From NCBI GenBank assembly GCA_916610825.1, contig OU744452.1:8526021-8590020 (forward strand): a stretch of 64,000 nucleotides of DNA, written 5' to 3'. The translations under genes were made by a program, and so were the position numbers. The DNA is from Haliclystus octoradiatus (lineage: Eukaryota; Cnidaria; Staurozoa; Stauromedusae; Haliclystidae). Below are positions 15,334-55,909 of this stretch, one piece after another; the first letter of the stretch is position 1; every line of letters begins with the position of its first letter. The notes beneath the pieces were generated by a model that was not told the origin of the DNA, made no database searches, and was given only the letters and a program-made list of their open reading frames with translations.

Positions 15334-15340
15334 AAGTTTT

Positions 15341-15405
15341 TCAAGAATCAAGATTATCAACAGCTTTTTGTTGATCTGGATTTAAGTCTAACTTTTCCAA
15401 TGGAC
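15341..15405 (-). CDS. Candidate last exon of the large gene
   Basis: After acceptor caaaatttag at 15406 there are two bases, then 20 codons and TGA (15341-15343). The peptide is PLEKLDLNPDQQKAVDNLDS, ordinary helical sequence continuing exon 20 in phase. It is short and rests on four agreeing signs: acceptor, phase, sensible residues, and two poly(A) signals just after the stop. The alternative, that exon 20 skips it and joins the PA14 exons, cannot be excluded. Confidence 0.65.
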
Positions 15406-18400
15406 CTAAATTTTGAACTTATGTGCCTAATGTTCATAATGTACGTACTCGGTTCATTGGCGAGGAGGGTCATACCAAATCCGTACAGTGGCGTACAAAG
15501 AGGAGGGGATGTCAATCGTCAAAGTACATCGATATTTATTGCATAATAGTTAAACTATGAATAGTTTTCCTAAAAAGCAATTTAAAACTTTCTGAAACAA
15601 CAAAGAAAAAATCTTTAAAAATGAAGAAGGGGGTTGAACTCTTTGTGTATTTTCCAGGAAATGCAGCCCTCTCGCTAACCAACATATGAGGTTGTTTAAC
15701 CCATTCAATGACACATAAATTGTTAACATAACTCACCACTCATGAGTTTTCCCATCATTTTAGCTGCCACGCCTTGTTCATCTTTACTTAATGAACAACC
15801 ATCATCTTGTAACAGAGATCCAAGTATTTTCATCGTATTGGCAGTACTTTCAGCTTGGTTGCTAAGTAACTCACTAAGCATCATAGAGCATTTAGTATTG
15901 CCTCCACCTCCTCCTTTGCCATTGGCTGGATCTCCTTTGCCGTTGGCACCAGCTGGTACAACATTTAGACCTACGAAAACATTTTTTAAAAGTGTTATCT
16001 TTAAGTCTACAAAGAATGAATACACGGATAACCTTTGAAGCCAACATTAATAGTCTCAATTTCAGGTGGTCACTCAAAAAGGTTATCAACAATTCCACTT
16101 TGTATTAAACGATAAACTACGTCTATAGAGGTGAATTAAATTAAATAGATGGTTTGTTGGCTTTTTTTAATGTGTGTAGCACTTATCTACATTCTAGACA
16201 AATGTTTCTCCAGCCACCAACTGACGCGACAGAGTAGTGCTAACAGAGTTACAAAGTTTGACGGGCATATTTTGGTAGGCAAGACTACTTACCTAATCTG
16301 CTGTGTCACACATTAAATCGCATGTAGTCTATTTTTCTTGGATTTGAACTGGATAAAGGTTCATTTTGAGAAGAACAACTATCTTGTCGAAGCATTCCAT
16401 ATTTTCATGAACGGTTCACAAACTCAGATTGTCTTATTTATGAAATGCTGTTCATCAGGGAATTAAAACCTAATCTGAATAAACAATCTGACTATATAAA
16501 GGCAAAACCTTTTTAATATGTATATTCCCTTTATTTCAATTTTCATGATATTCTGTATAAATAGCTTATATGTAACTTTATATTTTCTTAACTTGAAAAT
16601 GGTAGATGATATATTAGACTGTTGAAACGTTTGTTCGAATAAATAGAAAACAATTACTTTTGCCTTTGATCCTTTTACTGAAATGTTTTGAAGATAACAA
16701 ATATGAAAATGATACATACAATTTAACAAACTAAAATACGGAAAACCTTCTTTAGATCTGTTTCACTTACTTTTCAATGCTTCTAAACAGCTCAATGGGA
16801 TACTTGGTTCCGGGCCGCCCGGTTTAACCTCAGTGTCTGCTTTGCCACATCCTCCACCGTCACTATTTCCTGCTGGCTCAGCACCATTTCCTCCTAAAAA
16901 TCAAGAATTCATGATTAGAATTGCAATAAGGCTTGCTAATAATTCTATTATTCATTTCAATTGTCTAAAGTGGAACAAACTTACCATCCCCGCAATCCAC
17001 AACAGGTACCAACTTGTACTTTAATTTTGGTGCAGCTGAGGCAGATGATGCAGCCGGTGCACTGTTACCACCTCCACCGCAATCATCTCCACCTCCTCCG
17101 CTGCATCCGCCTCCTCCTCCTCCTCCGCCTGAATCTGCACAGCCACCTCCTCCATCGGCTTTTCCTGGGATTTTATACGAAATACAGTATGTTAGTGGTA
17201 CAATTGATTAATTGTATGAAATCACATTGTGGTGATGTCAAAATTGATTGAAACTGTTATATAAAATTAGCAAAACATCTATCATTGAACCCGTATATAA
17301 CAGCCAGCTACGAGAGGTAAATAATTGACCACTATACACATGTGGTCTTTATATACAGGGTTGGTTGTATAGAAAATAATATTGTAGATTTTTCAAAGGT
17401 GACCACTATACACAGGTGGCTATTGTATAAAGGTGGCCACTGAATAGAGGTGGTCATTTTAACATGGTTGATTGTAAGTGACAGAAGTTTGTTCAATTAA
17501 AGAGCATTATCACCTCTCTGCGAAAAAATTAGTTGAGTTTATGAACTGTTTATGAAATGCCCACAAATTGTTATGCAATTTAACGTTTATGAACTGTTTT
17601 CACGGAGGGTATTCATGGAAATGATTAGTTACAATCAAATTTCTTAACCGTTTTAATTTCCTACCTTTTTTAATGCCCCACTGGACATCTTCACGATAGG
17701 GAACGATATTTAACAAACTTGACTGCAGGCCTATTTCTTACTTATTTTGAAAAAATATGGAATAAGGGATTCTACTGAAAGAAACATTTTTGAAAGTAAT
17801 GATTGATTCTGATGAATATCAACTGAAAAAATTGATTTCTAAAATATTGAAGCCGATCCGATAAGAAATGATGGAGATATCAATGTTTCAAAGAATCTAT
17901 TTCTGCCGCACATTTATTTTCGTAACATACCGATACCATACATACAATAACATATGATATTCAATTTTGTCTCGAGCTAATTAAATATAATATTGAATAT
18001 TGAGAACATTGCAACATTTTCTTTCACGCGCAAACCCAAATCTTTTTTTTTCAAGTTTCAGACACTCCTCCAATTCAACCTAGCGTAAGCTTTCTGTTAA
18101 TACTTTACTAATCCACTAAAAAAGATTTGGGTCAGCGGGAAGACTAGATCCGGCTCCGAATGCATAAAAAAATGTAAATCAGGATTTAAGGCCAAACCAA
18201 TCAATCACACTTTTCAACTCATTTAACCTCTCACCTCCTCCTCCGCATTGAATTATAATAGGACCTCCTGAACCTCCGCATCCTTTACTTCCTCCAGCGG
18301 GAGAATCATCACCATCTTGAAAGCAAATTTAATATTCAACTGATTTTTAGATGCCAAGAAAAATAATTGTTTTGTAGGTGGATACTATCTACTTGTGTCG

Positions 18401-21400
18401 TTAATGGAAGTAGCATTAATGAAGTCATTTCCAATTATATTGATAATTTACTGTCCAAATATTGATGTCTATCAATTGTAATTTAGCAAAAATATTTGTA
18501 TCGTCGTCATGTTTTGATTTAATATGATCTAAAATCTACTTTGGAGATGGTTTGTTTTGCTTTTGGGACCACGTACGAGTGTATATTAATTAAGCCTTCA
18601 GGTTACATATGTAACTTCTTATAGATATCGTTGATAATAAATGAAGAAAGTAGGAAAAATAGTTGTATCGTTGTCCTGTTTTGATTTAATATGATCTAAA
18701 ATCTACTTTGATTATGTTTTGTTTTTGGACTTTGAGCGTTTGTTGAGTTGAAGTGAAAGTGTGTGCATGTTAAATGCAATGTAATTTTAAAATTTCAAAT
18801 CATTTCAAAATCAAACTTACCACTACTGCACGGTGGTGGTGGGGGAGGGGGAGGCGGTGGAGGGGGCGGAGGAGGTGGTGGTGGGGGTGGATGTGGAGGT
18901 GGTGGAGGTGGAGGTGGAGGTGGTGGTGGTGGTGGAGGTGGTGGTGGAGGAGGTGGGGGTGGCGGGGGTTTCGGATGAGGCTTTGCGCATGCGCTACCTG
19001 ATGGAACAAACACAATTTAGATTTAAATCCATGTATAGAAAAAGTAAATTCTAAAAACTGCTTTGTTTTCATGGCTTTGCGGGCATGCATGTATTGTTTT
19101 CTAGCTAAAGGTTTTTTATTTTTGTAATTAATTAGCTGATGAAGTAGATGTTTCATTTTTCAAGTTGACTGATATCTGCCTTTGTAGGCCAACATTTTAA
19201 TTTCGCTGTTTTCCCCGTTTTTTAATAGTAATTGTGAAATAATAATATTAATAGAAAGGAGTCACAGAGACCACACATTCTTATATTACTGCTTTAAGTT
19301 TCATGCTTTTGTTGTAGAAATCACAGAGACAGAAATAAACTATTTTATTCTGTCTGATGATTGCCATTGAAGCATGAAACTTAAGGTAACAGTATAAGAA
19401 TGTGTGGTCTCTGTGACTCCTTTCTATTTATATCATTATAATTTACAGCTCTGTCATATGACAACGAGCACTATATTCTTTGCTGTTAGATAACATCTAA
19501 TTTTAAATTATGATATAAATGTAATAACAATAATAGCCGTGGGATTGTTTTTAGTGCAGTGCTCATTAAAAGAAATGGGGTGATTAGCTCAGTTGGCAGA
19601 GCAACCGAACTTCAGATCGTATCATATCTGATCGACTGTGGTTCAAATCCCCCTCAGGTCAACTCAGCCTTAACTTTATCTGAAACATCAAATGAGTACC
19701 ATCTAAGGATGGCGGATGGAATGGTTCAGAAGGAATTGCATTGTGAGTAGCTGCGGCGCATCGTTGCGCATTGACAATCAAGGCCTATCTGCCATGAAAT
19801 CTGTTGAAATTGATCTGCAGTGTCGCGGCTGAGATCTAAGGAGCGTTTAACATCATTGCTCTTAGCGAAAAGAGCCACTTCTCTAGAAATAGAGGAGTGG
19901 TACGGGTGCCTTCGGTAGGGCGACACCGTCCATATTACTTTTATTAAAAGAAATCAAAGCATTTATAGAATGAGAGTCAAAAATGAAATATGCTAGAATT
20001 AATCTACTTAAAGTTTCACACCATAAGTTGATAATAAGGAGATTTATTTCAACTCAAGAGTTGAAATAAATCACCTGCTGATCGCCCTATGGGTGAAACT
20101 CGCAATAGCATAACTCTGGCAGCTTTCAATCTTGATATCACTTATATACATAATACTGGACCACACTCATTGCTAGTAATCTATATATCATCAATTGCTG
20201 TATTAATATTTTGCTTACTTACCTCCGCCGCCTCCTCCACCACATGGCGGTGGTGGTGGTGGTGGTGGTGGTGGTGGCGGTGGGGGCGGTGGTGCTGGTG
20301 CTGGTGCCGCTCCACAGTCATCTCCCCCTCCTCCTCCTGTCAATTTAAAATTAATTTAATTAGAATTAGTTATTTCTACATATAAAAATGCATTGGAATA
20401 ACTGATAAATTATGTACCGTCCTCACAGCTTGGTGCTGGGGCAGCGTCGCAGCCTCCTAAAATCGAAGGTTATAATAGTAAATTAAAATGTTAATTATAT
20501 TGAGCGTAAGCTCATATATACACATGTCATGAAAGCGCTCAATGTTAGTTAGAATGTCAACTCCTCCATATCATTTAACAATTTTAAGGATGGCTGCATT
20601 ATTTACATATGGTCAGTGTGAGGTGGATGTCGGAGCATATTTTATTGTCATATTACCCTTGTAAAATCAGTTGATGAACAGTTTTAAAGATGTTCATGAA
20701 ACCAGGCAATTAACGTTAATGACTAACAGTTCACAAACTGTTATACATAATTTGATCATGAAAACGTTCACGGAAAGGAGGCATTTTTGTTCACAAGTTG
20801 TTTATGAAGTGTTCATGAACACTTGAACAGTTCATGAAAATCTGTCAATTTAAGTTTTATGAACATTTAATGAGCTTTTAATGAAGTGCTCATGGATAGT
20901 TCATAAAAACAATCAATTTAAAGTTCATGAACAGTTGAAAAAATGTCATTTTATGTTCATTAACATTTCACGAGCTGTTTATGAAGTGTTCATGAACACT
21001 TGAACAGTTCATGAAAATCTATCAATTTAGCATTCATGAGCAGTTGAAGAAAATGTCAATTTAGCTTCATGAACATTTCATGAGCTGTTTATGAAGTGTT
21101 CATGAACAGTTCATCAAAAGCTATTAATTTAATGTTCATGAACAGTTGAAAAAGATGTCAATTTAACGTTCATGAACATTTCATGAGCTGTTTATGAAGT
21201 GCTTTCGAACAGTTCAAAGAAACTAGCTGGTTATAAAGTATCCACAAGCATTTCATGGATATGTGTAAGGTTTATAAACTGTATATGAAGCAAAAAGGTT
21301 TTATTGTCTATTTAGATGATCTTGCTAACCTCCGCCTCCTCCGTCACAAGGCGCTGGGGCAGCAGCTGCACATCCTTCGTCTCCTAAAAAATATGTTAAA

Positions 21401-24400
21401 CAAAGATAAATGTAACAATAATAATACAGTACTGTAATACTATTCCATTCTCAATCAACTACACGATAACTGAGAGTCACCCCCTAAGCACAGGCGCTTG
21501 TTTATTGGGGGAAAATAAACACATTTACAGGCAAACACAAGCATGTGTGATCGAGGAATTGAATCCCAGCCTCCCTCAAACAACCTCTGCGAAAAAAATC
21601 CATGAGTTCATGAACTTCATGAATAGTTCCTGAACGTTTTTTTGTTGGCTCATGAACAGTTCATGAACAGTCACAAACAGTTTGGGCAATTTCACGTTCA
21701 TGAACAGTTCATGGATTTTTGGGCAATTTCACGTTCATGAACTCATGAAATTTTTTTCGCAGGGTAAAGTGCCACTGAGTTACCAGTGCACACATACAAT
21801 ATGTGCAATTGTGTGTTGTTACAAGCATTACCATATCTATCATATTATTAATAAATTAGTCACCTCCACATGGTGCTGCACCTCCGCAACCATCACCGCC
21901 TCCTACAAAAATATGTTATACATAATAAATTTACCCATCATTTCTGAGATTAGGAAGTTTGATTACATTTTAATTCTGAGTAGTTGTCATAAGTAAACAT
22001 AATATCATCAGCATATTTGAATTGAAAGGAGTTAATTGATTGTAATTTAGTTACTGCTGGTAGTATGGGTTGGGGTGGTGATTAAACTTTAGACATTGTA
22101 AATGATAGATAGTTATTTAATTTGCATTAAACATTTACATAACAGCCGGCTATAATGTGAAGAACTATACTGGATAAAATCAGTAAAATATTTCTGATGT
22201 AACCACTACAGACGGGTGACCTCTACAACAGGTTTGACAAAACAAAACTGATACTTTCTATCCAGCCTTGTAAGATAATTCTTCTAATACGAACAATGGT
22301 TTAGATTCTCATGATTTCATATATTAAAATTTAATTTAAATTAATGCCTTGTAGGCCTAAATGAAATATTAGGTATATTCCTTGTTACTAGCCAATGCTG
22401 AATTGACATTTGCTGAGAGAGCAGTTCATGAATATTAAATTACCCAATTTTCATGAATTGTTCATCAATGTTTCACAAAGTTCATGAACTATTAAACTAT
22501 TTAGATATTTTTTCCCAGTGTATGTAAGATTGGAAAATTTGTGTAACTGATTTTTAGTTTAATTTGATGCGTCAAAATCAGTATTAGTATATTAAATTTA
22601 GCAGTTAGTCATTAGTCTTACCGTCACATGGTGGCGGTGGAGGTGGTGGAGGTGGTGGTGGTGGTGGTGGAGGGGGTGGTGGTGGTGGTGGCGGTGGCGG
22701 TGGTGGTTTTGGCGGAGGTGCTGACCCACCGCATCCTCCTCCTCCTGATTCTATAATAACATAAAATGAAAATATTGAATATTAATTTTATTCTTAATGT
22801 GTTAGTGTTGTTATATTTTATAGTTGAGCATACACACACCATTCATGTAAAGGTAATTACCTAGTTATTCACCAAAGGAATCACCTAATTATTCATCAAA
22901 TGAATCATCTAATTATTCATCAAGGGAATCATCTAGTTATTCATCATGGGAATCATTTGATTAAGATTATTCACCAAAGGAATCATCTCATTATTCACCC
23001 AGGGAATCATCTCATTATTCACCAATCATCATTATTGTTATTACACTTACCTGGTTCACACGAAACAGATATCTTTACTCCATTACATTTTCCACCACCT
23101 GATCCACCTCCACCGCATCCCCCTGAAGGAGGAGGTGGTGGTGGTGGTGGTGGAGGTGGTGGTGGCGGTGGTTTTCTGCATGGTGCATGGCCACCTCCTA
23201 TAAAGTAATTATTTTGATTGCTTTTAAAAGTTGTTTGCAATACAATAGTACAGATGTTACTATTAATGTTAGTAATGATTGCAATCCTACTATGACTGTT
23301 ATGGAGTATTTTCGTATTTAATATTATTTTCTAGTTACAGTCACAAAAGAAATATCGACACAAAAGTAGGAAGTCAAGGTATACTAATATAAAATGCGGA
23401 CCTCATTCAACTGGCATTTTACGGATCTGGATATGATCTAGAATCAATCAGAATTTTTAAAATCGGTTGAAACAGAATTTTCACGTTTGTTTCTTAAAGG
23501 GGCAAAATTGACCGGCGACCGCTGCGAGCATAAGTTGAATTTATGCTTAGCGTAATTCAACCGTCTCGCTTTGAAACAATTGTTATACGCAGGCCTAACT
23601 TGTAATAAAATTCATGTCAACAATGAACATTGTGTTATAACAATAAGCGTGCACGTGATCCTAAGTGCGTAGCGCCTGCCGGTCATTTTTGCTCCTTTAA
23701 GCCCTGGCCAAATGACTTTTTTATTTCGCCAACATTCATCGGATTTTGTTGAGTTCATTTTCGTCAACAGCGGATGGTATTTTGAGGCTTGGAAGCTAGT
23801 CAATCGAGCCCACCAATCCTGAGACAGGCTACGTCATTGTTGATCAATCATAGCAAGGTTCATATTTTCAACGAAACTCAACAATGTTGAGGAAATAAAA
23901 AGTCATTTGGCCACTTCGCCAACATCGGTAGAGAACAATAGAACTCAACAAAATCCGATGAATGTTGAGGAAATTTTTGAATGTATTCAAAATCGAAATT
24001 CAACATCAGCCAACAAAATCCGAAAAAGTGAGGATGGCCAAATGACTTTTGTATTTTCTCAACATTCATCGGATTTTGTTGAATTCAACAATGTTGGCGA
24101 AATAAAAAGTCATTTGGCCGGGGCTTTAATTCGACCTACTACTAGAATCTTGACAAAAGGGCCGGCAACTATTTCCTGTGCCCATATTTCTGTCATGTGA
24201 TTGGTTCTCAGTTAGATACTGATTGATTCTAAATTGTTCACAGACCCGGATTTTACCATTGTGAAAAGGTCACCAATTGGTAAAAAAAGTCCCGCTTACT
24301 TTGATGTGCTGCATTTTTCAAAATATTATATGAAATTGTGGACCTTCGAAAGGATGAATTATTTTAAAATTTAGTTTAAATAGCGTATCATTAGCACAAT

Positions 24401-36400: not shown

Positions 36401-39400
36401 TGCCGTCCAACACCTCAACAAAGACTTGGAAAAGGTGCACCAATGGTTCCAGCTGAATTGTCTAAAACTGAACCCCTCAAAAACTCAATGCCTACTAATC
36501 ACTCACATTCCAGAACCCGACATTCACGTTACGAGCGCAAATCTTCTAAGTACTAATCAAATACATAACAAAGACATTACAATCGACGATGTAACCTTAC
36601 CTTGGCTCAATATAATAAAGATACTCGGTGCTCACATTGACAGTAGATTAAACATGAGATGTCATCTTCGCAATTGCATCAGAAAAGCCAATCTCTCCCT
36701 ATATCAAATCAAACAGGTTAAAAAATCCCTAAACCCACACCCTGAAAAAAAAAATAAATAAAAAAAAATAAAAAAAATAATAAAATAATAAAATAAAAAT
36801 AAAAATTATATTATATTATTAATATTATTATCCTTATCATTATTTCTACTAATTTACAATATTACAATTAATAACTTACTTTTAAATTCGTATCAATTTA
36901 TAAACGAGCATTTGCTCATTTTGGTTACGAATCGAAATAAAATTATACACACACACACACACACACACTTCGGAATAGATCGCCAACAAAAGCCGTTTAA
37001 GGAGCAGTGCCGTATACGCTGTTTACAGGCACAAAGCCAAACATCAAGAATCTGAGGATATTCGGGTTTGATGTCTTTAGCACATACCAACCCCTCAAAA
37101 ACTCAATGCCTACTAATCACTCACATTCCAGAACCCGACATTCACGTTACGAGCGCAAATCTTCTAAGTACTAATCAAATACATAACAAAGACATTATAA
37201 TCGATGATTTAACCTTACCTTGGCTCAATATAATAAAGATACTCGGTGCTCACATTGACAGTAGATTAAACATGAGATGTCATCTTCGCAATTGCATCAG
37301 AAAAGCCAATCTCTCCCTATATCAAATCAAACAGGTTAAAAAATCCCTAAACCCACACCTTGCCAATACACTTAACAAGACATACATCCGTCCTCACCTA
37401 GAACATTGTAGTCTACTTCTTCTTGGAATTAATCAAACGGATAGACTAAAATTAGAAAGAATTCAAGAAAAATCACTAAAACACCTAACACGACCCAATA
37501 CTGGTAAAGAATATCGTCTTCCATCACTACACGTCAGAAGAATAGTAAAATTAACCAATATGATCCACAAAACACTCATAACAGAAACTCCAAAACTTTT
37601 ACACTCCCTCTTCAAGATATCCAACACTAAATATACGTCATCTTGCCGTCCAAACAAACTCATCCCACCCATTTGCAGAACAACCCTGATGAAATGGTCG
37701 ATTGTAGCAGTAGGTACTAGAGTCTGGAACTTTATCCCGGAAGTAATACGTGGGGAAGCAATAAGAACATTCAAAGAGTCAACTCTTGCGTATTTGACAT
37801 CCCTGGAATGGAAAATAAATTATTGGTTTATGTCAATCAGCTGTCGATAGTTAGATTATAATGTTATATATATCAAAAACACTAGCATTTTCCTCATAAA
37901 TATAATACAATTAGCATAATTATGGAACTTGTCTCGTTCAAAAAACGAAAAAAAAAAAAAAATAAAAAATAAAAAATAAAAAAAATAAAATAATAAAATA
38001 AAAATAAAAATTATATTATATTATTAATATTATTATCCTTATCATTATTTCTACTAATTTACAATATTATAATTAATAACTTACTTTTAAATTCGTATCA
38101 ATGTAAAACGAGCATTTGCTCATTTTGGTTACGAATCGAAATAAAATTATACACACACACACACACACACCAAAGTAGAGAAGACGAAAGTTGGACTCAA
38201 AGTCTATCAAGTGTATTTTCATTGGCTACAGCATGCAAACGAAGGGTTATCGTTTGTGGGAGCCAAAGAGCAAGAAGCTTTATGTGTCGAGAGATGTTTG
38301 ACGAGGAATAGTTTGGAAATCGAGACGGTGACGCAAATAACATCAGCTGCAAGAGAGTAGGGGTGAAGAAATTGATTTACCGAATACCCCAGACTAAAAT
38401 CAGTCGAGTGAAGATGCTGCGGACCATGATGAAGAAGCAGATATCCAGCCAGCAGAACACATCCAAGAGGCCGATGATCCAGCAACTGAACAAGACTGCC
38501 AAAGACAGTTGAGAAGATCAATAGTTGCGCCGGACTGTTATGGGCCAACCATTACTGGTGAATGGTGGAAAAAACAATCATGCACCCAGCACGAGAATGG
38601 TTGATCATTCAGAGCCCGAATCGATTAAAGAAGCCATGAATTCAGACAAGAAGAAGGAATGGAAAAATGTCTTGGACATCGAATTTGAATCGCTTCAGAA
38701 AAATGGGACGTGGGAATTGTTTGAGCTACCTCCTAAAAAATCGATTGGTTCCAAGTGGGTATTTAAGACACAAAGAAATGCTGCAGGTGACGTGGAAAGA
38801 TACAAGGCACGACTGGTTGCAAAAGGCTATGTTCAAACTGAAGGGGTCGATTTTGAAGAAACGTTCGCTCCAGTAGCGAAATTCAATTCAATCAGATCAA
38901 TTCTGGCCATTGCCGACCAGCTTGATTTGGAAATACATCAAATGGATGTGCAAACAAAATTTCTAAACGGAGAAGTATCAGAAGAGATTTACATGGAACA
39001 ACCAGAGGGCTATGCAGAGCCAGGGAAAGAGCAACTAGTATGCAAACTGAATAGCTTGAAACAAGCTTCACGATGTTGGTTTTCAACTATCAGGCTGCAA
39101 GCAAAGCAAAGCAGATAACTGCATTTACACCGAAAGAGTGAGAGATTCATTTCTCATCATTGTCCTTCACATTGATGACATCTTGCTCGTTTCCAAGGGC
39201 ATTGACATCATTACAACAGAGAAAGAAAGGCTGAAAAGGAAGTTTTAGATGAAAGACCTTGGAGAGGAAAGCTACGTACTGGGACTGCAAATAAAGAGAG
39301 ACTAAAATCAAAGATTGCTATTTCTGAATCAGAAGAAACACCTGACAGAGCTCATCGAAAATTTTGGAATGAGTGAATGCAATCCAATCGGAGCTCCGCA

Positions 39401-42400
39401 AGATTTCAAGGAGAAACTAACGGAGAACGACGAAGAAGAATCAAAGGAAAAGCAACGATACCGAGCCATCGTTGGAAGTATCAACTATGTTGTGTGCCGA
39501 ACAAGACCAGATTCGGCAAGCACGGCCACTCAGCTAAGTCAATATTGTTCGAACCCTGGTACTCAGCACTGGAGAACACTGAAGCGACTGCTGAAGTACA
39601 TCAAAGGGACAATTGACAACGGCATCAGGTTCAAGGCCGAAAACAGGAGTGTAAATCTGTGTGCATACGTTGACGCAGATTGGGCAGGAGACGAGTCAAA
39701 CCGGAAATCCCGCACTGGATTCATTCGAATGCTATGCAGAGGACCTGTGTGTTGGCTCAGCAAAAAGCAGGCGACATTGACACTATAAACCACCGAAGCA
39801 GAATACATGGTGATCAGTGAGGTAATACGAGAAGTGACGTGGTTTAGAGCATTGTTACATGATATAAACTTAAAGCAAGATGAGGCTACAGTCATATACG
39901 AGGACAACAACGGTGCAGTTTTATTGGCAAAGATTCTAAACATCATAGGCGAAACAAGCGCATCGATGTGAAGCATCATTTCATAAGAGAGAAGATGGCC
40001 AACAAGGAAATCAAGCTGGTAAATTGTCCGTCAAAGAAGATGGTCGCCGACGGCCTCACAAAAGCTCTGCCAAAGAAACAGTTTCGAAAATTACGACAAT
40101 CGATGTGAATTACTGATTGATCATTGCACACTTTAATTGTATCACGAGTTGACGAACAAAATAACTCATGAGTGGGAATATTGGAATAATTAGTGTTTAC
40201 ATTATGGATGCAAAATAATTAGTGCATGAATTATGCAAATCAGATTTAGCCATGTGTTTATTATTAGTCCGTGTTTGTAGTTGAATGAGTATAGTTGTTT
40301 TTATTGATTGCGTTAACTCTATCTCACTGTGTAGTTGATTTCTCTGATTCATGTCTAAATAGAGGTTGTAACGAATATCTCTGTACAGTGGTAGTCAACC
40401 TGCTTTACCAGTCACCTGGCTGTAATGACCACTCCAGTAATATACAAAAATCATTCCGTTCAAAATTCCTGTATAGTATACCAAGGGCCACCTGTCTACA
40501 ATGGTCAATTTATCTATAGGTGGCTGTTATATCAGGTCTTTATATATAATTTGACATGAATAATTATAATTATGCAAATGCATAATAATGTAAAATAAGA
40601 ATTTACATATTTATTTTCCACTTAAGCTCTCAACTACTCAATAAAATAATATTTTACAATCTAGCCAAATGAATCATGCTATATGACCATTTCATAAATA
40701 TTGTAATTCATACGTATTGTAGCATATAGGTGGCTGTTATATACAGGTTTCACTGCAGTTGGGGTTGATTATAAGCTTATTATTGCTTGCATCTGATTCA
40801 ACAGTGCCCTATGATGAAAGCTGTCATCGTGCCCATCCCATAAATTTACATAGACTGCCGATCCCATTGACAGACTTTCAAAAGGTAAGCGTATCCACCG
40901 TTAGGATCCATAATTGCTGAAGATTGAGACCAAAAAATGAAAACTATTGCGAATTTTTGAACCACGTTTTGAATCATATTCGTGAGGACTTTTTGGAGGT
41001 AAACAAAGTTTTCTCGAAGCATAGTGATAAAACTTGCGGTGCATAAATAAATAGTAATGTAGACGGTGTCGCCCGACCGAAGGCACCTGTACCACTTCTC
41101 TATTTCTAGATGAGTGGCTTTTTTGCTGAGATCAATGATTTTAAACGCTGTTTTTTGATCTCAGCCGCGGCACTGCAGATCAATTTCAACAGATTTTATG
41201 GCAGATAAGTCTCGATTGTCAATGCGCGACGATGCGCCGCAGCTACTCACAATGCAATTCCCTCTGAACCATTCCATCCGCCATCCTCAGATGGTACTCA
41301 TTTGATGTTTCAGCTAAAGTCAAGGCTGAGTTGGCCTTCGGGGATTTGAACCACAGTCGATCAGATATGATCCGATCTGAAGTTCGGTTGCTCTGCCATC
41401 TGAGCTAATCCGCCAATAGTTACTGCGATGCATCAGTTACTTTTACAAGTAAAAAGAGCGCCCAAAGAGGCTCAGTCGGGCAATCGAACCATCTTGTGGA
41501 TTCTTATCGTGACGTCACACATTGGCAGTGCATGTAAGCATTACATTTAGTGAAATTTAGCCGGAATATGATTTCACGGTACATTAAATATAAACAACTA
41601 ATCAACAACTGATCATTTAGAGAAAATAACGTAATTTGAAGTTTGTTAATGTAAGATAATTAATGTATTACAATATCATTATATATAATTAACATAGATA
41701 ATAGTTATAATTGCAGATACATAATAATGTAAAATTAGAATTTACATATTTATTTTCCACCTAAGCTGTTAACTACTCAATAAATAATATTTTACAATAT
41801 AGCCAAATGAATCATGCTATATAACCATTTTATAAATGTTGTTATTAATACGTATTGTAGTTTATGACCATTCCTTCGTTTGTTAGATTTGATAATTGAT
41901 CTATTTTATCAAAATAATCAAGTTGATTATCTTGACTTGAGCTGAGCGAGATTAGCCCCCATGTGATATGGGATCCGTTATAATAATGATGCGTCATAAA
42001 TTCGTTACACGCCGTGAAGATAGCACATTGGCAAATTGATTCACAGTACATGCCAATTTGTGTCCAATCTACGCGGGGGTTGATCATCTCTCAGAAACCC
42101 CCTTTTCCGTTTTCATTAAGATGTAACTTTGTTTTTACATGCCCTTTCTTAAGGCTTTGATTATGATTTGTTTTTGATTATGTCTTTCTTCTCTTTATAT
42201 TTTTATTATGAGTTAGTTTGGAGTGATGTTTTCCTTTACCAGGAATTCGATGCCGGGAGTAGATACCTGAAGCAAAAACATATAAGTTTTCACATTTTTC
42301 AATTTTTCGCTGTATAAACGTTTGGATACAGTAATAGTAATTGAGGCGGTACCGCCCTACCGCCGGCGGTAGTGAAAGCACCCGTACTATTCCTCTATCT

Positions 42401-45400
42401 CTAGATGAGTGCCTCTTTTTGCTAATAGCAATGATGTTAAGTGCTCTTTATTGATCTTAGCCGCGACACTACAGATCAATTTCAATAGATACCATGATAG
42501 ATATAGGCCTCGATTATCAGTTCGCAATGATGCGCCGCAGCTACTTGCAATGCAATTCTATCTGAACCATTTCATCCGCTTTCCGATGTCATCGTTTTGA
42601 TATTTTAGATAGAGTCAATGCTGAGTTGATTTCGGGAGATTTGAACCACAGTCGATCAGATATGATCATATCTGAAGCTCGGTTGCTCTGCCATCTGAGC
42701 GAAAGCTCCCTTTGGATACCATCAATATTAAAATCAAAAGGGGAAATCCGTTGTTTCTTGAGTTCAATCTCTGACAGGATCATTATTGGTTGGTGGCAGG
42801 AAGCGCATCCGGCCATAAACCTTATACCCTGTTTGTGGATAAATGATGGATCTAAAATAAAAAAATATAAGGACGCGTCTCCCAAACGCGTACATGCTTT
42901 GCGCAATGAGAAAGCGGAATTAGCAGTAGTACTTTAAACGAGTCTAAACCTCCCTAATACCCAAATGGAACGGACGATCTACATCATCAGAAATGTCTCT
43001 GGTGAAGGTGTGAACCACGTGTTGCGACAGTTTCATCAATTGATTAAATGATCTCACCTCCGTAAAGTGATTCGTCCCGTTTTAAACCTGGCTCCCATAC
43101 GTCTTGCGGTTTAAAAGATTGTACTTGACTAGATTTTGGTAAGTCACTTTCCTCTGATGCATCTTTCCATGATTGTAATTCTTCATTACTAATTGGATGA
43201 TTATAATAATTTACTTCATAATTACTAGGTATAGAGTTCACAACGTGATTACTTCTAACCGAAGGCTGTGCTAACTGGTCAGGTAACCGGTTCGATGGTT
43301 GGCTATATGAAGGTTGATCTCTCTTTTTTGATAATGATTCTAATTCATGAATTAACTTTTTCAATCGAAATGTTTGACGTTGCTCAGTTCTCTCTGTAAA
43401 AGAAATGAATTGACAACATCAAAATAAAACAATCAATAAGCTAGAGTTAAACCTGTATATATAGTAAACATCAGAGCAAAAAGGTATTTCTTAAAAGGGA
43501 CATTTCCCTTTATAGCTAATGTATTGAAGTCAGGTCAGAGCCACATATTTACAAGAGTTGGGACACACTTCCATGTACCTATTTCGGCTCCCATTGACAA
43601 GATGATAGTCATGCTATTTTAGGGACGCTATTTTTTTCCCGTCAAATCCACGCTCGCAAAATTTGAACAATGCGCGCGAAAATATATCATGAATTCAAAA
43701 AGTTTTTGTTCGAGAGCAAACTTCGTTTGAATGAAAATGGGGATTTTCGAGCCCCAAAACTTGCGTGTCCCAACTCCTATAAATAGATGGTTCAGATTGA
43801 AGTATCTCACCGGGCAACTTACCTAATTTCATCAAGGCTATTTTATGTCTTAATCTTTTTCTTTCTTCTTCAGCATGTTGTCCTTGCACGTGTTCCAAAG
43901 TCATCATCTTTTTTGTAGCTGCTATTTCTAATTGACTTTCAACCGACCTTCCCTTTCTATGTTTATGATATTTTTTATTGCTAGATCGCTTTTTTGGCTT
44001 TTGAATCATCGACGAGGCATCTTTTCTTGGTCTTCGATTTGCATTCCGTTTTGATGTTATCCGTTGCGTATTTACTGCCATTCTTGTGTTCGATGGACGG
44101 TTATAACCTTGAAAAGAATCAATAATAATACATTCATGCTCAGTTGACGAAGAAATGTTTTACATTTCACAAACCATCTTTGGCAGATATCTGTTTGATT
44201 TTATTTACATAAAATGTGTACTCCTTATCTTTGTTCCGACGAAAAACATTCCAAATCCTGTCCAAACGTCAGAACAAATTAAATCGTGATTTTTTGTCGC
44301 TATCTTTCATACTAATACATTAGTTATTCTAAAATTAAATCAATAAAGTATAAACAATAAAAAATAGTAAACTATTTCAGAAAACAAACTTCGTGACAGA
44401 ATAGACGCTATAAAACATGGCTGTATCAGTCGTTTCTTATCAGATCGACTCCAAACTTTTACCTATCAATTGTTTCAGTTGATGTATGCGTCAGACTCAA
44501 TCGTTTATTTGAAAAATGATCTATTCAGTAGAAATGTTATATTATCGTTATGTTCTTACCTCTTACTGGGGATTCCCCCCATGAATAGATAATAGTTTCT
44601 CTTGCACTGCGTCCCATGTTCTTTGGCCTCATTCTATTTGATGGTCTATCGAATGGGGATAAAGTTTTCCCTTCTAAACTTCCTCTAAGTGAATCAATAT
44701 CTGCCATATCTTCAGGAAATATTGAATCGGCATACATTGAAGATATTCCACCAACACCTTGAGTTTTGATTGGTCTACCACCATTGGCTGGACCCATAGT
44801 GACGTCATGATCAGGAACTGTGTTCTTCCAATCAAATTGAGAAGAATATCCTGCGTTCATTAGTTCTTCCGGTCGACTTTCTCTGTGTCGCATTTCATGA
44901 TGGCGGATTAATCGATGTCGCTGCGTTCTTCGTTCTTGTTCACCTTGGTTCATCTCAGGATAGTTCTTGGTTTTCCCTTGATTGGGCATAATGCTAGCGC
45001 TCTGCACTTCACGCTGGGCGTTGGTTTCAGTATATAATTTATTTTTGTTTTGATTAGGTGCAGCTCTAGCACTTTGTATTTCACGTTGGGCATTTGCCTC
45101 AGGTAATAATTTATTCTTATGTTGTTGTTCTCGTTGTTGGGCTATATCTGGTGAAGGCACAATAGTATTATCTAGCATTGGATTCATGGGGTTGGACTGG
45201 GAATAGCTAGATTTACCGTTTGTTGACATCTCATGTGTATCAATCGAATTTAACACATCTTCAGCTTGTTTTGTTCCCAATGTTACATCGCTCGTAACGT
45301 GTTTATTTCTTGCATGACGGAAGCTTGGATTATTTAATCCGTCATATGTCTCTGGGCGTCCCTTCTCTTCCATGACAAAGTTATTCGATGTCTTTGAAGG

Positions 45401-46422
45401 ATGACCCTGACTATTTTTACTAACGTCTGCTGGATTTGGACTACCAACTTTACTCTTTTGATAAACATCTATTGGAGCCGGATTGTGACCAGGTGACATC
45501 GACCCCCCTGGTCCCTGTAATATTCCACCTCTTGATCGCCCTTCTTCCATTTCGGGAGGCTTGGCAAAATATTGAGGCATACCACCATCGCTTCTCTGGT
45601 ATTGGTTCTGTGGATTTCCATTGCCTTGAAACTCAGATGGTGGTGGTTCTTGTGGGGGTCCATCATTATCAAGACCTGGCCCACCTTGTCCAGGATCACC
45701 TTGACTTGGACCACCAAACCCTGGTCCCTCAGACCCACCTCCTGGTGGTCCCATATTATCGTCATTTGGTTCATCGTGCCTTTCATCATTTTGTCCGATC
45801 ATTGGAGGTCCATCTCTTTCAAACGGTCCACCTTGCATTTGGTCCATAGTTGTCGGACCATCCGGTTGACCACCTTCACCATCACCGGTGGGACTCATTC
45901 CTCTACCTGTAAATTCGCCGGGAGACTGTTGAGTTGGTGCAAAGTTACTACCTGGCATTGCCATAGGATTTGCGACGATTTGACTATCAATAAATTGATG
46001 ATTCTGTGAAATTGGTACACCATTATGAAACATCATTTTTGGTCTAAAGTTGTTAGCTCCTCCTATTAGTCCTTGTAATTCTTGTTGAAGACCATGTTGC
46101 ATTCCTGGAATGTTCTGCCCATTTAGATTTACTGGAATTGGGGCTTGATTATGCGGATCCATTGGAGGTTGATTTGGTGTTGGTTGGTTTTGCTGATTCA
46201 TGTTATCACGTTCTTCGCCTGTGTTATGTAACGATCCTAACATCTTGTGTAGATTTTTAATGGATTGTGACATGTCTTGATTGCCACTTACAAAGTCATT
46301 CATCATTTCTAATGCTTTATCCGGCGAGATAACGCCTTGATTCAAATCACTCATGACTTCGTTTGCAACAGGACTCACTGGGGCTCCTTTATCCGAATCT
46401 GAACTTGGCATTTCTGCCTGTC
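15341..46422 (-). CDS. Large Pro/Gly/Gln/Asn-rich, cysteine-paired low-complexity protein (partial, 21 exons)
   Basis: I do not recognise this gene. It was rebuilt from exons at 46422-44560, 44107-43823, 43393-43058, 30361-28286, 27255-27088 and fifteen more, ending at 15405-15341. Every junction has acceptor AG and donor GT, and phases match at all 20 joins. The product in the window is about 2,160 residues: a Pro/Gly/Asn/Gln-rich part, a Lys/Arg-rich part, a very polar Gln/Asn/Lys/Glu part, then a string of cysteine-paired Pro or Gly modules and a short helical end. No enzyme domain or transmembrane segment is visible. The first exon seen starts with two bases that complete a codon, so an upstream phase-1 exon, plausibly a signal peptide, is missing. 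Many paired cysteines suggest a secreted, disulphide-linked structural protein (inference). The same exons could also splice on to the PA14 exons further left. Confidence 0.8.
15737..15970 (-). CDS. Large-gene exon 20: helical near-C-terminal segment
   Basis: 234 bp, phase 1-1, acceptor gttttcgtag, donor AGTG|gtgagt. It starts with Gly/Lys/Asn-rich sequence (GANGKGDPANGKGGGGGN), then a leucine/methionine-bearing helical stretch with NQAES, KILGSL and KMMGKLMSG. Two cysteines (TKC, DGC) flank the helix. The KILGSL word matches KMLGSL near the start of exon 1. The phase-1 donor fits two acceptors equally well: the short last exon at 15405 and the first PA14-side exon at 12145. Confidence 0.85.
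16771..16893 (-). CDS. Large-gene exon 19
   Basis: 123 bp, phase 1-1, acceptor cttgatttttag, donor AAAA|gtaagt. It encodes about 41 residues, GGNGAEPAGNSDGGGCGK followed by an acidic/Gly/Pro linker and IPLSCLEALK. There are two cysteines. The composition moves from Gly-rich towards ordinary sequence as the end of the module string nears. Confidence 0.8.
16985..17164 (-). CDS. Large-gene exon 18: poly-Gly module with four cysteines
   Basis: 180 bp, phase 1-1, acceptor ataaaatcccag, donor GATG|gtaagt. It begins GKADGGGGCADS, continues with Gly runs holding two more cysteines (GGCSGG and DDCGG), then an Ala/Ser stretch and LKYKLVPVVDCGD. Its tail resembles that of exon 9. Glycine replaces proline as the spacer here. 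Confidence 0.84.
17283..17477. mobile_element. Pogo-like MITE copy
   Basis: AACCCGTATATAACAGCCAG at the left, GTGGTCATTTTAACATGGTT at the right, GTGACCACTATACACAGGTG inside. Confidence 0.6.
17512..17610. mobile_element. TTCATGAAC-family MITE, short copy
   Basis: ACCTCTCTGCGAAAAAAT at the left against TTTTCACGGAGGGT at the right, with TTTATGAACTGTTTATGAA inside. Confidence 0.6.
18235..18315 (-). CDS. Large-gene exon 17: Gly-Cys module with PIIIQC
   Basis: 81 bp, phase 1-1, acceptor gctttcaag, donor GGAG|gtgaga. It encodes DGDDSPAGGSKGCGGSGG then PIIIQCGGG. Two cysteines enclose a Gly/Ser and Ile stretch, with no polyproline. Confidence 0.78.
18495..18729. repeat. Local direct repeat of about 65 bp
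   Basis: GTATCGTCGTCATGTTTTGA, TTTAATATGATCTAAAATCT and ACTTTG at about 18495-18560 return at 18664-18729. Between them lies ATTAAGCCTTCAGGTTACAT, which also occurs at about 14513-14532. Confidence 0.7.
18821..18997 (-). CDS. Large-gene exon 16: 45-proline module
   Basis: 177 bp, phase 1-1, acceptor ttccatcag, donor AGTG|gtaagt. It encodes GSACAKPHPK, then 25 prolines, one His, 20 prolines, then CSS. This is the longest proline block in the gene, again with one cysteine at each end. All four proline codons are used, so the block is not a recent pure microsatellite. Other frames read as Gly-rich or His-rich ORFs; these are shadows. Confidence 0.85.
19251..19437. mobile_element. Foldback MITE with 55-bp arms
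   Basis: ATAGAAAGGAGTCACAGAGA then CCACACATTCTTATA and GTTTCATGC at the left are exactly mirrored at the right (GCATGAAAC, TATAAGAATGTGTGG, TCTCTGTGACTCCTTTCTAT). About 70 bp lie between the arms. It stands 140 bp before the young SINE. Confidence 0.85.
19577..19942 (+). mobile_element. SINE family 1, young copy with 12-bp target duplication
   Basis: Full-length element with intact A box (TTAGCTCAGTTGGCAGAG) and B box. Flanked by ATTAAAAGAAAT at 19565-19576 and 19943-19954, a perfect 12-bp target-site duplication. This defines the family ends: about 366 bp. Confidence 0.9.
20223..20336 (-). CDS. Large-gene exon 15: Gly, Ala-Pro and 17-proline module
   Basis: 114 bp, phase 1-1, acceptor aattgacag, donor GGAG|gtaagt. 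It encodes GGGGGDDCGAAPAPA, then 17 prolines, CGGGGGG. Its CCA triplets are purer than in other exons, so length may vary between individuals. Confidence 0.83.
20418..20456 (-). CDS. Large-gene exon 14: minimal Cys-DAAPAPS-Cys module (39 bp)
   Basis: 39 bp, phase 1-1, acceptor cgattttag, donor GACG|gtacat. It encodes GGCDAAPAPSCED, again with seven residues between the cysteines. It is almost the same module as exon 13, as expected of an exon duplication. Only 81 bp of intron separate it from exon 15. Confidence 0.74.
20670..21230. repeat. Tandem array of TTCATGAAC units, about 105 bp each
   Basis: About five imperfect units, each with GTTCATGAACAGTTGAAAAA, ATGTCAATTTA, CATTTCATGAGCTGTTTATG and AAGTGTTCATGAAC. 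It uses the same words as the inside of the MITE family around it, so it probably arose by expansion of one MITE. It fills the intron between exons 13 and 14 of the large gene. Confidence 0.8.
21330..21383 (-). CDS. Large-gene exon 13: Cys-AAAAPAP-Cys module
   Basis: 54 bp, phase 1-1, acceptor atattttttag, donor GGAG|gttagc. It encodes GDEGCAAAAPAPCDGGGG, with seven residues between the cysteines. It lies just downstream of the TTCATGAAC-type tandem array in the adjoining intron. Confidence 0.75.
21583..21765. mobile_element. TTCATGAAC-family MITE copy
   Basis: ACCTCTGCGAAAAAAATCCA at the left, AAATTTTTTTCGCAGGGT at the right, with several GTTCATGAACAGTTCATG words inside. Confidence 0.72.
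21864..21902 (-). CDS. Large-gene exon 12: minimal Gly-Cys module (39 bp)
   Basis: Only 39 bp, phase 1-1, acceptor tttttgtag, donor GGAG|gtgact. It encodes about 13 residues, GGGDGCGGAAPCG: two cysteines five residues apart. It is supported by splice sites, phase and composition rather than length. Confidence 0.72.
22430..22520. mobile_element. TTCATGAAC-family remnant
   Basis: GCAGTTCATGAATATTAAAT and TTCATGAATTGTTCATCAA words, with eroded ends. A smaller piece is at about 16410-16460. Confidence 0.45.
22622..22750 (-). CDS. Large-gene exon 11: Gly-Cys and 26-proline module
   Basis: 129 bp, phase 1-1, acceptor ttatag, donor GACG|gtaaga. It encodes SGGGGCGGSAPPPK, 26 prolines, then CD. The cysteines lie at the two ends of the proline block, as in the exon at 25226-25375. 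Confidence 0.85.
22864..23032. repeat. 24-bp minisatellite
   Basis: About six units of GGAATCATCTAATTATTCAT plus CAAN, one of them lengthened to 30 bp. It starts 114 bp upstream of exon 11 and ends near the donor of exon 10, so it fills most of that intron. Confidence 0.85.
23051..23197 (-). CDS. Large-gene exon 10: polyproline plus Gly module, four cysteines
   Basis: 147 bp, phase 1-1, acceptor tactttatag, donor CCAG|gtaagt. It begins GGHAPCRK, followed by 15 prolines, then a Gly-rich part with one cysteine (SGGCGGGGSGGGKC) and KISVSCEP. Four cysteines make it look like two fused two-cysteine modules. A 24-bp minisatellite lies in the intron just downstream. Confidence 0.83.
23698..24129. 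mobile_element. Foldback element, about 430 bp
   Basis: TTAAGCCCTGGCCAAATGAC at the left is the inverse of GTCATTTGGCCGGGGCTTTA at the right. The words ATTTCGCCAACATTCATCGG and ATTTTGTTGA occur several times in both directions, so the element is internally repeated. ORFs reading through both strands are artefacts. Confidence 0.8.
24370..24505 (+). mobile_element. Possible LINE 3' end with ATTC tail
   Basis: GCCTGTCAAATTCCATTCGA followed by repeated CATTCATTCATT resembles a LINE 3' end. Weak evidence. Confidence 0.3.
24593..24682 (-). CDS. Large-gene exon 9: Cys-polyproline module with LKYKMVP
   Basis: 90 bp, phase 1-1, acceptor aactttcag, donor TCAG|gtttgt (weaker than the others). After VDCEPA come nine prolines in a row, then LKYKMVPICVS. 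The words LKYK and VP return in the exon at 16985-17164 (LKYKLVPVVDCG), so the two exons probably share an ancestor. Confidence 0.78.
25082..25138 (-). CDS. Large-gene exon 8: Cys-(Ala-Pro)-Cys module
   Basis: 57 bp, phase 1-1, acceptor tattaaag, donor TCAG|gtaacc. It encodes GSGAAPCVPAPAPAPASCS. Two cysteines are separated by ten residues of alternating Ala-Pro, a short version of the proline spacers in the neighbouring exons. Confidence 0.82.
25226..25375 (-). CDS. Large-gene exon 7: Cys-polyproline-Cys module
   Basis: 150 bp, phase 1-1, acceptor tcatttcag, donor CCAG|gtaaaa. The order is CAPAA, then 13 prolines, one Ser, 23 prolines, then HPAPCVP. The two cysteines therefore enclose a stretch of 36 prolines with one break. 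Proline codons are a mix of CCA, CCT, CCC and CCG, not a pure triplet repeat. Confidence 0.85.
25421..25551. mobile_element. Short foldback MITE
   Basis: GCAATTGGCGCACAGTTTCC at the left is mirrored by GGAAACTATGCGCCAATTGC at the right. A diverged relative (GCAGTTGGCTCACAGTTTCC) lies at about 8880. Confidence 0.75.
26228..26302 (-). CDS. Large-gene exon 6: Met-Asp repeat and Gly module
   Basis: 75 bp, phase 1-1, acceptor attgtag, donor CAC|gtaagt. It encodes DGSCVPPEMDMDMDMGCGGG and a short Gly/Met/Ala tail. The two cysteines bracket a Met-Asp dipeptide run, a different spacer chemistry from the Pro modules that follow. Confidence 0.8.
27088..27255 (-). CDS. Large-gene exon 5
   Basis: 168 bp, acceptor ctattttag, donor ATGG|gtaag; phase 1 at both ends. 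It encodes about 56 residues of ordinary composition, His/Lys/Ser-rich, with one cysteine close to the end in the word VPCVR. The same VPC/PCV words recur in later exons. It is the first of the symmetric phase-1 exons. Confidence 0.78.
28286..30361 (-). CDS. Large-gene exon 4: 692-residue Gln/Asn/Lys/Glu-rich segment
   Basis: A 2076 bp single exon with acceptor ctattacag at 30362 and donor CCAG|gtaggt. The first 60 residues are mixed (HPRYRKHLHAKK, a GGGG run). About 500 residues then consist almost only of Gln, Asn, Lys, Glu, Ser, Gly and Ala, with no cysteine and almost no large hydrophobic residue. A repeat of about 19 residues built around ENEKSQSKQPE occurs twice near 29.45-29.57 kb. The last 70 residues regain helical, leucine-bearing sequence (TQLQQLQKLAQSSNPDP, VKILKKLGEQ). 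This looks like a long disordered, charge-balanced spacer. The frame is intact over 2 kb of low-complexity sequence, which argues for selection on the protein. Confidence 0.9.
30571..30764. mobile_element. Pogo-like MITE copy, followed by a second copy
   Basis: ACAGTCAAACATGTTATAGC at the left and TGTAACACGTTTCACTGTGT at the right form clear inverted ends. A second, incomplete copy follows at about 30790-30893 (CCCTGTATATAAAGGTCACC, then CTTCACTGTAGTG). Confidence 0.65.
30944..31225. mobile_element. Foldback MITE with about 120-bp arms
   Basis: GTAGTAGTATCGTTCCATAG and then ACAATTATTGAACGTGATAT at the left are mirrored by TTTCACGTTCAATAATTGTA and CTATGGGACTATACCACTAC at the right. Confidence 0.8.
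31485..32135. mobile_element. Possible DNA element of about 650 bp with 24-bp inverted ends
   Basis: TTTAGTAGAAACCAACTAGT at the left against ACTAGGGTACT-type inverse GTACCCTAGTCGGTTTCGAC at the right, with several mismatches. A small hairpin (AATTAGACAAC / GTTGTCTAATT) at 31400-31482 lies just outside. Confidence 0.45.
34533..35740. mobile_element. Non-autonomous hAT-type DNA element, 1208 bp
   Basis: Ends are CAGGGGCGGATGCAG at the left and CTGGATCCGCCCCTG at the right, inverted repeats of the hAT type. TGGCAATC stands at 34525-34532 and again at 35741-35748, a perfect 8-bp target duplication, the hAT signature. It sits inside the copia integrase and splits it cleanly. No transposase frame is visible, so it must have moved with help from another element. 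Confidence 0.92.
36098..36969 (+). mobile_element. 5'-truncated non-LTR retrotransposon, copy 1
   Basis: The open frame to 36761 is a LINE reverse transcriptase fragment: SKAFDMVHHKLRMEKLRAYG, RGVPQGSIISPLLFNIYVAD, and the catalytic YADDTTLYYS. After about 36740 the coding region jumps to an A-rich 3' tail through an internal deletion, ending in (AC)n at about 36948-36968. It resembles CR1/Jockey-type elements. It is inserted in the copia integrase after GEAVVT. Confidence 0.88.
37086..38171 (+). mobile_element. 5'-truncated non-LTR retrotransposon, copy 2
   Basis: It starts inside the RT gene at NPSKTQCLLI and is nearly identical to copy 1 over about 270 bp. It keeps the C-terminal part copy 1 has lost (TYIRPHLEHCSLLLLGINQT through VGTRVWNFIPEVIRG, to the stop at about 37850). 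The 3' tail has poly(A)-like runs and ends in (AC)n at about 38151-38170. Copia sequence lies on both sides. Confidence 0.88.
38525..39118 (+). pseudogene. Copia reverse transcriptase, N-terminal half
   Basis: Open frame of about 190 codons with the Ty1/copia RT start: an EAMNSDKKKEWKNVLDIEF region, KWVFKTQRNAAGDVERYKAR, FAPVAKFNSIRSILAIA, then QMDVQTKFLNGEVSEEIYM. It fails after the KQASRCW motif through a small deletion; the HIDD part follows in another frame. In most relatives the second motif reads DVKTAFLNG, so QTKF is a change at a normally acidic/Ala site. Confidence 0.88.
39315..39788 (+). pseudogene. Copia RT thumb and RNase H fragment
   Basis: Open frame from LFLNQKKHLTELIENFGM through YRAIVGSINYVVCRTRPD (thumb) to YVDADWAGDESNRKSRTG (start of RNase H, first catalytic Asp). 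A TAA at about 39785 interrupts it before TTEAEYM; the rest of RNase H continues in the same direction to about 40108. Confidence 0.88.
40560..40720. repeat. 160-bp direct duplicate (first copy)
   Basis: It matches 41700-41863: TGTAAAAT[TA]AGAATTTACA, TATTTATTTTCCAC and GCCAAATGAATCATGCTATA recur in order. The copies are about 1.1 kb apart, with a SINE between them. Confidence 0.8.
41055..41413 (-). mobile_element. SINE family 1 copy, minus strand
   Basis: Reverse orientation, near full length: CGGTGTCGCCCGACCGAAGG at the left, and the tRNA-like head (GGTTGCTCTGCCATCTGAGC) at the right end. Confidence 0.85.
41700..41863. repeat. 160-bp direct duplicate (second copy)
   Basis: Partner of 40560-40720, roughly 90 percent alike by eye. 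Confidence 0.8.
42345..42705 (-). mobile_element. SINE family 1 copy, minus strand
   Basis: Reverse orientation, near full length but older than the copy at 41 kb; the tRNA-like head lies at about 42635-42705. A family-2-like piece follows it. Confidence 0.8.
43058..43393 (-). CDS. Large-gene exon 3: polar linker segment
   Basis: 336 bp, acceptor cttttacag, donor GGAG|gtgaga. The first codons continue the helical stretch of the previous exon (RLKKLIHELESLSKKRDQP), then come Ser/Gln/Asn/Pro-rich residues with no cysteine. If the donor were not used, the frame would stop four codons later (GGEII, stop at 43044). The strong donor and the phase match with the 30361 exon favour splicing over a 12.7 kb intron packed with transposons. 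Confidence 0.8.
43823..44107 (-). CDS. Large-gene exon 2: basic Lys/Arg-rich segment
   Basis: 285 bp, acceptor ttttcaag at 44108 and donor TTAG|gtaagt. It enters with two bases and leaves with one, matching both neighbours. About 95 residues are very rich in Lys and Arg (for example KPKKRSSNKK and YHKHRKGR). A charged, probably helical or coiled stretch follows, containing HAEEERKRLRHKIALMKLG. The Arg/Lys pairs could be protease cleavage sites if the protein is secreted, but that is a guess. Confidence 0.82.
44560..46422 (-). CDS. Large-gene exon 1: Pro/Gly/Asn/Gln/Met-rich segment
   Basis: This 1863 bp exon has acceptor ttacttag at 46423 and donor GAG|gtaagaac at 44559; it enters with two leftover bases and leaves with one. 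The open frame gives about 621 residues. The first 75 residues look helical and end in KMLGSL. A Pro/Gly/Asn/Gln/Met-rich stretch follows, with GGP and GPP clusters (about 45.6-45.9 kb). Near 45.0-45.2 kb two diverged copies of a roughly 27-residue repeat contain NAQRE, QSA and PNQ. The last 100 residues are Arg/His-rich. The first in-frame ATG is at 46411 but has no signal peptide after it, and the frame stays open upstream to the acceptor, so the true start is probably in another exon. Confidence 0.85.
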
Positions 46423-46646
46423 CTAAGTAATATAAAATACACAGTAAACAGTACTTATATGTTATATTTGTACTGTCAAACTTGCTTAGTAATCCCCTCT
46501 CTGGTACAGATGAAAAGCGGGAACTCTAAGCGATGCTGGATTATGAGAAATTGTATGGATAATAGAAATTAGAAATCAGTTTTATATGGGGATATTAAGC
46601 AAGGTGAGATATTGAAAGAGGGGATATTAACCGAGTGCGACTGTAC

Positions 46647-46953
<307 letters not shown>

Positions 46954-55865: not shown

Positions 55866-55909
55866 ACAGCAACAACAGCATCAACAACAACAACAACAAC
55901 AATAATAAT

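Follow-up and report, generated by a model that had tools for sequence, protein, structure and literature searches.

A mosaic low-complexity gene of cysteine-bracketed polyproline and polyglycine exons in Haliclystus octoradiatus, a candidate for a crosslinked structural protein

The capsule walls and glues of cnidarians attract study as biomaterials; the crosslinker known from them is the six-cysteine CRD. Spider and insect silk proteins carry a long low-complexity core between helical ends, and plant extensins are polyproline structural proteins that are crosslinked via tyrosine in Ser-Pro repeats. In excerpts of the published account, CPP-1 (cnidarian proline-rich protein 1) is a small protein (26 kDa predicted) with one rigid polyproline stretch flanked by two six-cysteine CRDs, disulphide-crosslinked in the capsule wall of Hydra, and in cnidoin CRD units enclose an elastic, silk-like domain (PMC6910907). 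For Haliclystus octoradiatus, a stalked jellyfish (Cnidaria, Staurozoa), the genome paper names peculiarities of gene structure among the possible causes of the low BUSCO score (PMC9975415). The titles and abstract openings of the literature searched contained no report of the gene described here or of staurozoan adhesive proteins, and 'glycine-rich' and 'proline' each had 0 occurrences in the main text of a paper on Hydra basal-disc adhesion (PMC5080974).

We analysed a window of 64,000 bases (C8:8526021-8590020), and genome-wide searches were performed on the assembly of 261,861,806 bases in 33 contigs. Splice-site scans of the minus strand from 46422 to 15341 rebuilt 21 exons that join into a single frame, with 2,156 codons when counting begins at the ATG at 46411 and 2,159 whole codons when it begins at the acceptor of exon 1. 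The only stop in the joined frame is the terminal TGA (15343-15341), and an AATAAA is present at 15333-15328 on the same strand. The exons were rebuilt independently of the list in the original prediction, and its 21 exons of about 2,160 codons over this interval were reproduced, together with its spacer of 692 residues, which is exon 4. Intron sizes range from 81 to 12,696 bases. The largest, intron 3 (12.7 kb), holds retroelement fragments on the plus strand at 36096-39118, with RVT_1 at 36096-36761 and RVT_2 at 38525-39118, the latter presumably of Copia type.

The first scan of the minus strand combined splice sites with composition and allowed all phases; it was not wholly independent, since its amino-acid score had been trained on stretches of this same gene. 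It returned 14 non-overlapping exons, 13 of them sharing a phase class in which the exon opens with two bases that complete a codon and closes with one base of the next, with exon 6 read in another frame and the acceptor of exon 20 placed 18 bases further in. Exons 8, 9, 12, 14 and 17 came from a list of proline- and glycine-rich stretches, which also gave exon 20 with its earlier acceptor. The source of exon 5 was a list confined to the matching phase (four rows, two being forms of exon 5 and two dropped) and exon 21 was placed by eye from the sequence, so the phase 1 position of all 20 introns is partly by construction. Scanning for exon 5 (27088-27255; 56 residues, 1 Cys) over all nine phase classes together gave 18 candidates, which makes it indistinguishable from background and the exon with the weakest support of all; with exon 5 removed the frame remains open at 2,100 codons. 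Splice scores were weak for the donor of exon 14 (0.1) and for the acceptors of exon 17 (-1.6), exon 21 (0.3) and exon 6 (0.4).

A phase-free control searched for exons with at least two cysteines and a proline- or glycine-rich product, with no phase imposed and nine phase classes possible. On the minus strand at 15300-28300 it returned 12 exons, all 12 in a single phase class; two were shorter forms of exons 10 and 11, and exons 14, 17 and 20 were missed. The plus strand gave 0 exons at 15300-28300 and 0 at 1-15300 and 28300-64000, and the minus strand gave 0 at 1-15300, 28300-46500 and 46500-64000. The reversed string gave one exon, in a different phase class, and 30 dinucleotide shuffles gave 0 exons in each, an easy control; because shuffling destroys the tracts, the strand and reversed controls weigh more. 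Proline codons over the whole protein were CCA (180), CCT (69), CCG (31) and CCC (19), with third bases mixed inside every one of the eight long runs of proline as well, unlike a pure microsatellite. On this sequence evidence the stretch is very probably a real gene of 20 or 21 exons. Its reading as one mosaic low-complexity gene is likewise supported, as originally predicted.

Cut at exon borders, the predicted protein consists of a head of 617 residues, a basic part of 207, the spacer of 692 and a module part of 640. The head is coded by exon 1 (44560-46422; all exons are on the minus strand), in which the first ATG is at 46411-46409 and the product is rich in Pro, Gly, Asn, Gln and Met with no cysteine. 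A single-sequence model of its first 80 residues (mean pLDDT 68.7) predicted a helical N-terminal stretch with helices at 14-25, 30-43, 45-64 and 68-71. Exons 2 (43823-44107) and 3 (43058-43393) code for the basic stretch and exon 4 (28286-30361) for the cysteine-free Gln/Asn/Lys/Glu spacer. The first 1,516 residues, which are charged and rich in Gln and Asn, contain 0 cysteines and the last 640 contain 35, with counts from exon 5 to exon 20 of 1, 2, 2, 2, 2, 4, 2, 2, 2, 2, 2, 2, 2, 4, 2 and 2; 15 of the 16 cysteine exons thus carry two or four. Dropping exon 5 leaves 34 cysteines and an even number in every cysteine exon.

The module exons vary around these cysteines. Polyproline is bracketed by two cysteines in exon 7 (25226-25375; 41 of 50 residues Pro), exon 11 (22622-22750; 29 of 43 Pro, the phase-free form being 6 bases shorter), exon 15 (20223-20336; polyglycine flanks) and exon 16 (18821-18997; 47 of 59 Pro), Pro-Ala in exon 8 (25082-25138) and Ala-Pro in exon 13 (21330-21383), where polyglycine follows. 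Exons 12 (21864-21902) and 14 (20418-20456) are micro-exons of 13 residues with two cysteines each, and two are also found in exon 6 (26228-26302; Met-Asp and Gly-rich), exon 17 (18235-18315; Gly-rich) and exon 19 (16771-16893; Gly/Glu/Pro). Exon 10 (23051-23197; 4 Cys) combines polyproline and polyglycine, its phase-free form starting at 23122. Exon 9 (24593-24682; 2 Cys) has polyproline followed by LKYKMVPIC and exon 18 (16985-17164; 4 Cys) polyglycine followed by LKYKLVPVVDC. The LKYK(L/M)VP common to both ahead of the closing cysteine suggests a module duplication; the corresponding DNA pattern showed no enrichment genome-wide (5 places, two in this gene, versus 15 for the reversed control). 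Exon 20 (15737-15970; 2 Cys, with a possible alternative in-frame acceptor 18 bases inward) codes for a Gly/Asn linker and a tail in which a low-confidence single-sequence model predicted helices at 24-36, 42-54 and 62-76, and exon 21 (15341-15405) codes for the C-terminus. Overall the protein has eight proline runs of at least nine residues (lengths 9 to 26) and a highest 15-residue mean hydropathy of 1.22, and the module part has three aromatics in 640 residues. The helical stretches at the two termini, one of ten pairs compared among five stretches, reached a best local score of 36 (shuffle P = 0.064), and we claim no likeness between them.

Exons 1-4 were without a Pfam match at 0.01, and exons 7-19, exons 20-21, the first 140 residues and the stretch from exon 2 to the start of exon 4 were without one at 1. 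An FH2 or other actin-related domain was absent from the Pfam searches, which covered the parts outside exons 5-6. Exon 1, exons 20-21 and the stretch from exon 2 to the start of exon 4 were also without a match among PDB sequences. The claim that the gene belongs to no known family thus agrees with the parts tested, although this is not proof of novelty. No six-cysteine CRD ending in CC was matched in the protein by a regular expression that did match three of three typed exon pieces (from loci L024, L048 and L051, chosen for showing the pattern), and no adjacent cysteine pair is present. There was also no run of at least five Gly-X-Y triplets and no Pfam Collagen match among the parts tested, and the resemblance to minicollagens is one of style only, as had been proposed. 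Within the own genome, exons 20-21, exons 5-6, and exons 2-3 together with residues 1-33 of exon 4 each matched their own places only.

Similar materials were found elsewhere in the genome. A polyproline-cysteine pattern occurred at 24 places compared to 7 in the reversed control, with three of the 24 in this gene, and 14 fetched regions covered 17 of the 21 places outside the window. Two further cysteine-polyproline or cysteine-glycine patterns occurred at 12 and 8 places (reversed controls 4 and 5), and 10 of their 16 loci were examined at 3 kb each. No second array of phase 1 two-cysteine exons was seen in these regions and loci. Searching four parts of the protein against 18 loci by tblastn found no relative, either masked at an E of 1 or composition-adjusted at 1e-3, and a repeat with the window added as positive control did find the window. 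Unmasked and unadjusted at 1e-10, the modules matched 17 of 18 loci and the spacer 2 of 18, matches that reflect shared composition only. A gene near 12.19 Mb on C1 (L019-L020, C1:12.188-12.192 Mb, minus strand) has a start, MKILVVLIAISLVLLSDHCDA, judged signal-peptide-like by eye, followed by a Cys-polyproline exon, and this suggests by analogy that secreted proteins of Cys-polyproline make-up probably exist in this genome. Since these exons are joined in phase 0 and similarity does not extend beyond composition, the C1 gene is an analogue of the gene studied here and not a relative. With its Lys-rich and Gly/Ala-rich exons it appears to code for another mosaic protein.

The fetched regions and examined loci also contain a cluster of minicollagen-like CRD exons on the minus strand of L024-L027 (C5:7.915-7.955 Mb), one of which bears a very long run of polyproline, and a CPP-1-like exon on the minus strand of L048 (C5:9.4765 Mb) with CRDs and polyproline-Met tracts and no collagen pattern. 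On the minus strand of L024-L027, the five CRD exons listed all share the phase class of this gene. At C2:28.95-29.01 Mb the minus strand of L030 stays open for at least 2,601 codons with HRPxxVIHQP-like repeats, the frame being cut off where the fetched stretch ends, and L031:3523-6000:+ has a frame of 826 codons that combines a signal-peptide-like start with an acidic Lys/Glu part and a Gly-His part, with no Pfam match. Other low-complexity genes are also present in these regions.

Secretion, which the original prediction had put forward, was examined upstream of exon 1 (46423-64000). At the strict setting there was no ATG exon combining a signal-peptide-like stretch with the right phase, and at the loose setting none of 10 rows was convincing as a signal peptide: two lay inside the neighbouring channel gene, seven had weak donors, and one (57033-56967) had a good donor and weak hydrophobicity. 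A 500-base N run (47225-47724) lies in a suitable place for an upstream signal-peptide exon. We consider it probable, by inference, that the protein is secreted. Immediately upstream of exon 1 is an ATT microsatellite of about 300 bases (46646-46955), and the neighbouring gene at 47847-49207 on the minus strand has exons of a voltage-gated potassium channel (Pfam BTB_2 and Ion_trans), which we take to be Shaker-like and whose last exon may fall within the N run.

The best explanation of these data, to which we give an even chance, is a structural protein of some 2,156 residues, disordered for the most part, in which cysteine brackets would crosslink rigid polyproline and flexible polyglycine, with secretion inferred. 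In its favour are the evidence for a real gene, the partition of the cysteines, their paired counts per exon, the LKYK(L/M)VP common to exons 9 and 18, the C1 analogue and the published precedent of CPP-1; against it stand the failure to find a convincing signal peptide upstream, the odd cysteine count with exon 5 included, the lack of genome-wide enrichment of the LKYK(L/M)VP pattern and the phase 0 junction of the C1 gene. Taken as a function, crosslinked and structural is somewhat favoured by the sequence, and a disulphide-linked, fibrous or adhesive character is plausible. Microsatellite noise, in which the open frames would be repeats expanded within introns or between genes, is very unlikely: CCN and GGN repeats are common in the region and in the genome, but the tracts are surrounded by phase-consistent splice sites that were seen neither on the other strand nor elsewhere in the window, and coding exons 2, 3, 20 and 21 are non-repetitive. 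An intracellular protein would start at 46411 and lack a signal peptide, and its polyproline would bind profilin, SH3, WW or EVH1 proteins; that the searches found no convincing signal peptide, the basic stretch in exons 2-3 and the proline runs of 9-26 are compatible with this. We nevertheless regard it as unlikely, given that the part with the polyproline also holds 35 cysteines, nearly all in even numbers per exon, and that the four parts submitted to Pfam showed no domain up to an E of 1.

Two transcription units or start sites would instead yield two products, a long cysteine-free one from exons 1-4 and a short, secreted one made of cysteine modules, which would start at an ATG at 25412, just upstream of exon 7. 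From 25412 an in-frame MKLINYISFVISA leads directly into the CAPAAPPPP of exon 7, two of the three signal-peptide-like ATG stretches with a phase 1 donor on the minus strand at 46423-15000 are forms of MKLINYISFVISA, the cysteine count is even in each cysteine exon from exon 7 onward (total 32), and the division between cysteine-free and cysteine-rich parts is sharp, with intron 3 at 12.7 kb. However, the third of those stretches (21544-21481) also fits exon 13 in phase, which shows that such stretches arise meaninglessly. At 13 residues the hydrophobic stretch at 25412 would make a short signal peptide, and it coincides with the pyrimidine-rich sequence at which intron 6 ends. Exon 6 and its two cysteines precede this start, the borders of exons 4, 6 and 7 share a phase, and we consider two units improbable. 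A divergent wall protein of the stinging capsule (nematocyst) specifically is a reading that partly coincides with the best explanation and adds a location to it. It is consistent with the cnidarian host, with the combination of polyproline and cysteine crosslinks described for CPP-1 in the excerpts of PMC6910907, and with the minicollagen-like and CPP-1-like genes in the same genome, including the phase class of the CRD exons of L024-L027. The protein, however, has no six-cysteine CRD, no CC and no Gly-X-Y run of at least five, and is far longer than the 26 kDa predicted for CPP-1 in those excerpts, which leaves this site a tentative possibility.

Under the preferred reading of a largely disordered, crosslinked structural protein, an upstream signal-peptide exon would direct the chain into the secretory path, and in an oxidising compartment the cysteine brackets would form disulphides between chains. 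Polyproline would act as stiff rods, glycine stretches as hinges and the long cysteine-free part as a hydrated spacer, and the symmetric phase 1 exons would allow modules to be duplicated, lost or skipped with the frame kept. The product could then harden into a network, as the wall of a stinging capsule or as a glandular adhesive or matrix secretion. It is conceivable, if speculative, that this is a staurozoan invention of CRD-independent crosslinking, in which each symmetric phase 1 exon is a disulphide bracket around a polyproline rod or polyglycine hinge, stiffness and crosslink density are set by exon number and alternative splicing, and the long cysteine-free spacer is part of the same chain. 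If true, small exons carrying cysteine-bracketed rods and hinges would represent another way of building a tunable protein network, and genes like this could be missed when repetitive micro-exons pass for microsatellites.

Compared to silk proteins, the predicted protein similarly has a low-complexity core between helical ends (the ends coming from weak models), but the ends are not detectably alike and the core is not one tandem repeat. It shares polyproline in a structural protein with the extensins, and differs in the scarcity of aromatics in its modules. Like cnidoin it would be a crosslinked low-complexity structural protein, the crosslinking being proposed here, but it has no CRD. With minicollagens it has in common polyproline near cysteines and the phase class of this genome's minicollagen-like CRD exons, whereas CRD and Gly-X-Y collagen are absent. 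CPP-1 is likewise cnidarian and has rigid polyproline between cysteines, with a disulphide network that was shown for CPP-1 and is proposed here; unlike CPP-1, this protein has eight proline runs of at least nine residues, single cysteine brackets in place of CRDs, a cysteine-free part of 1,516 residues and a far greater length. Because similar physical parts are arranged in a different layout, with single cysteine brackets mostly on their own symmetric exon, we hold, by analogy, that the protein would work like a CPP-1 or minicollagen network while belonging to neither.
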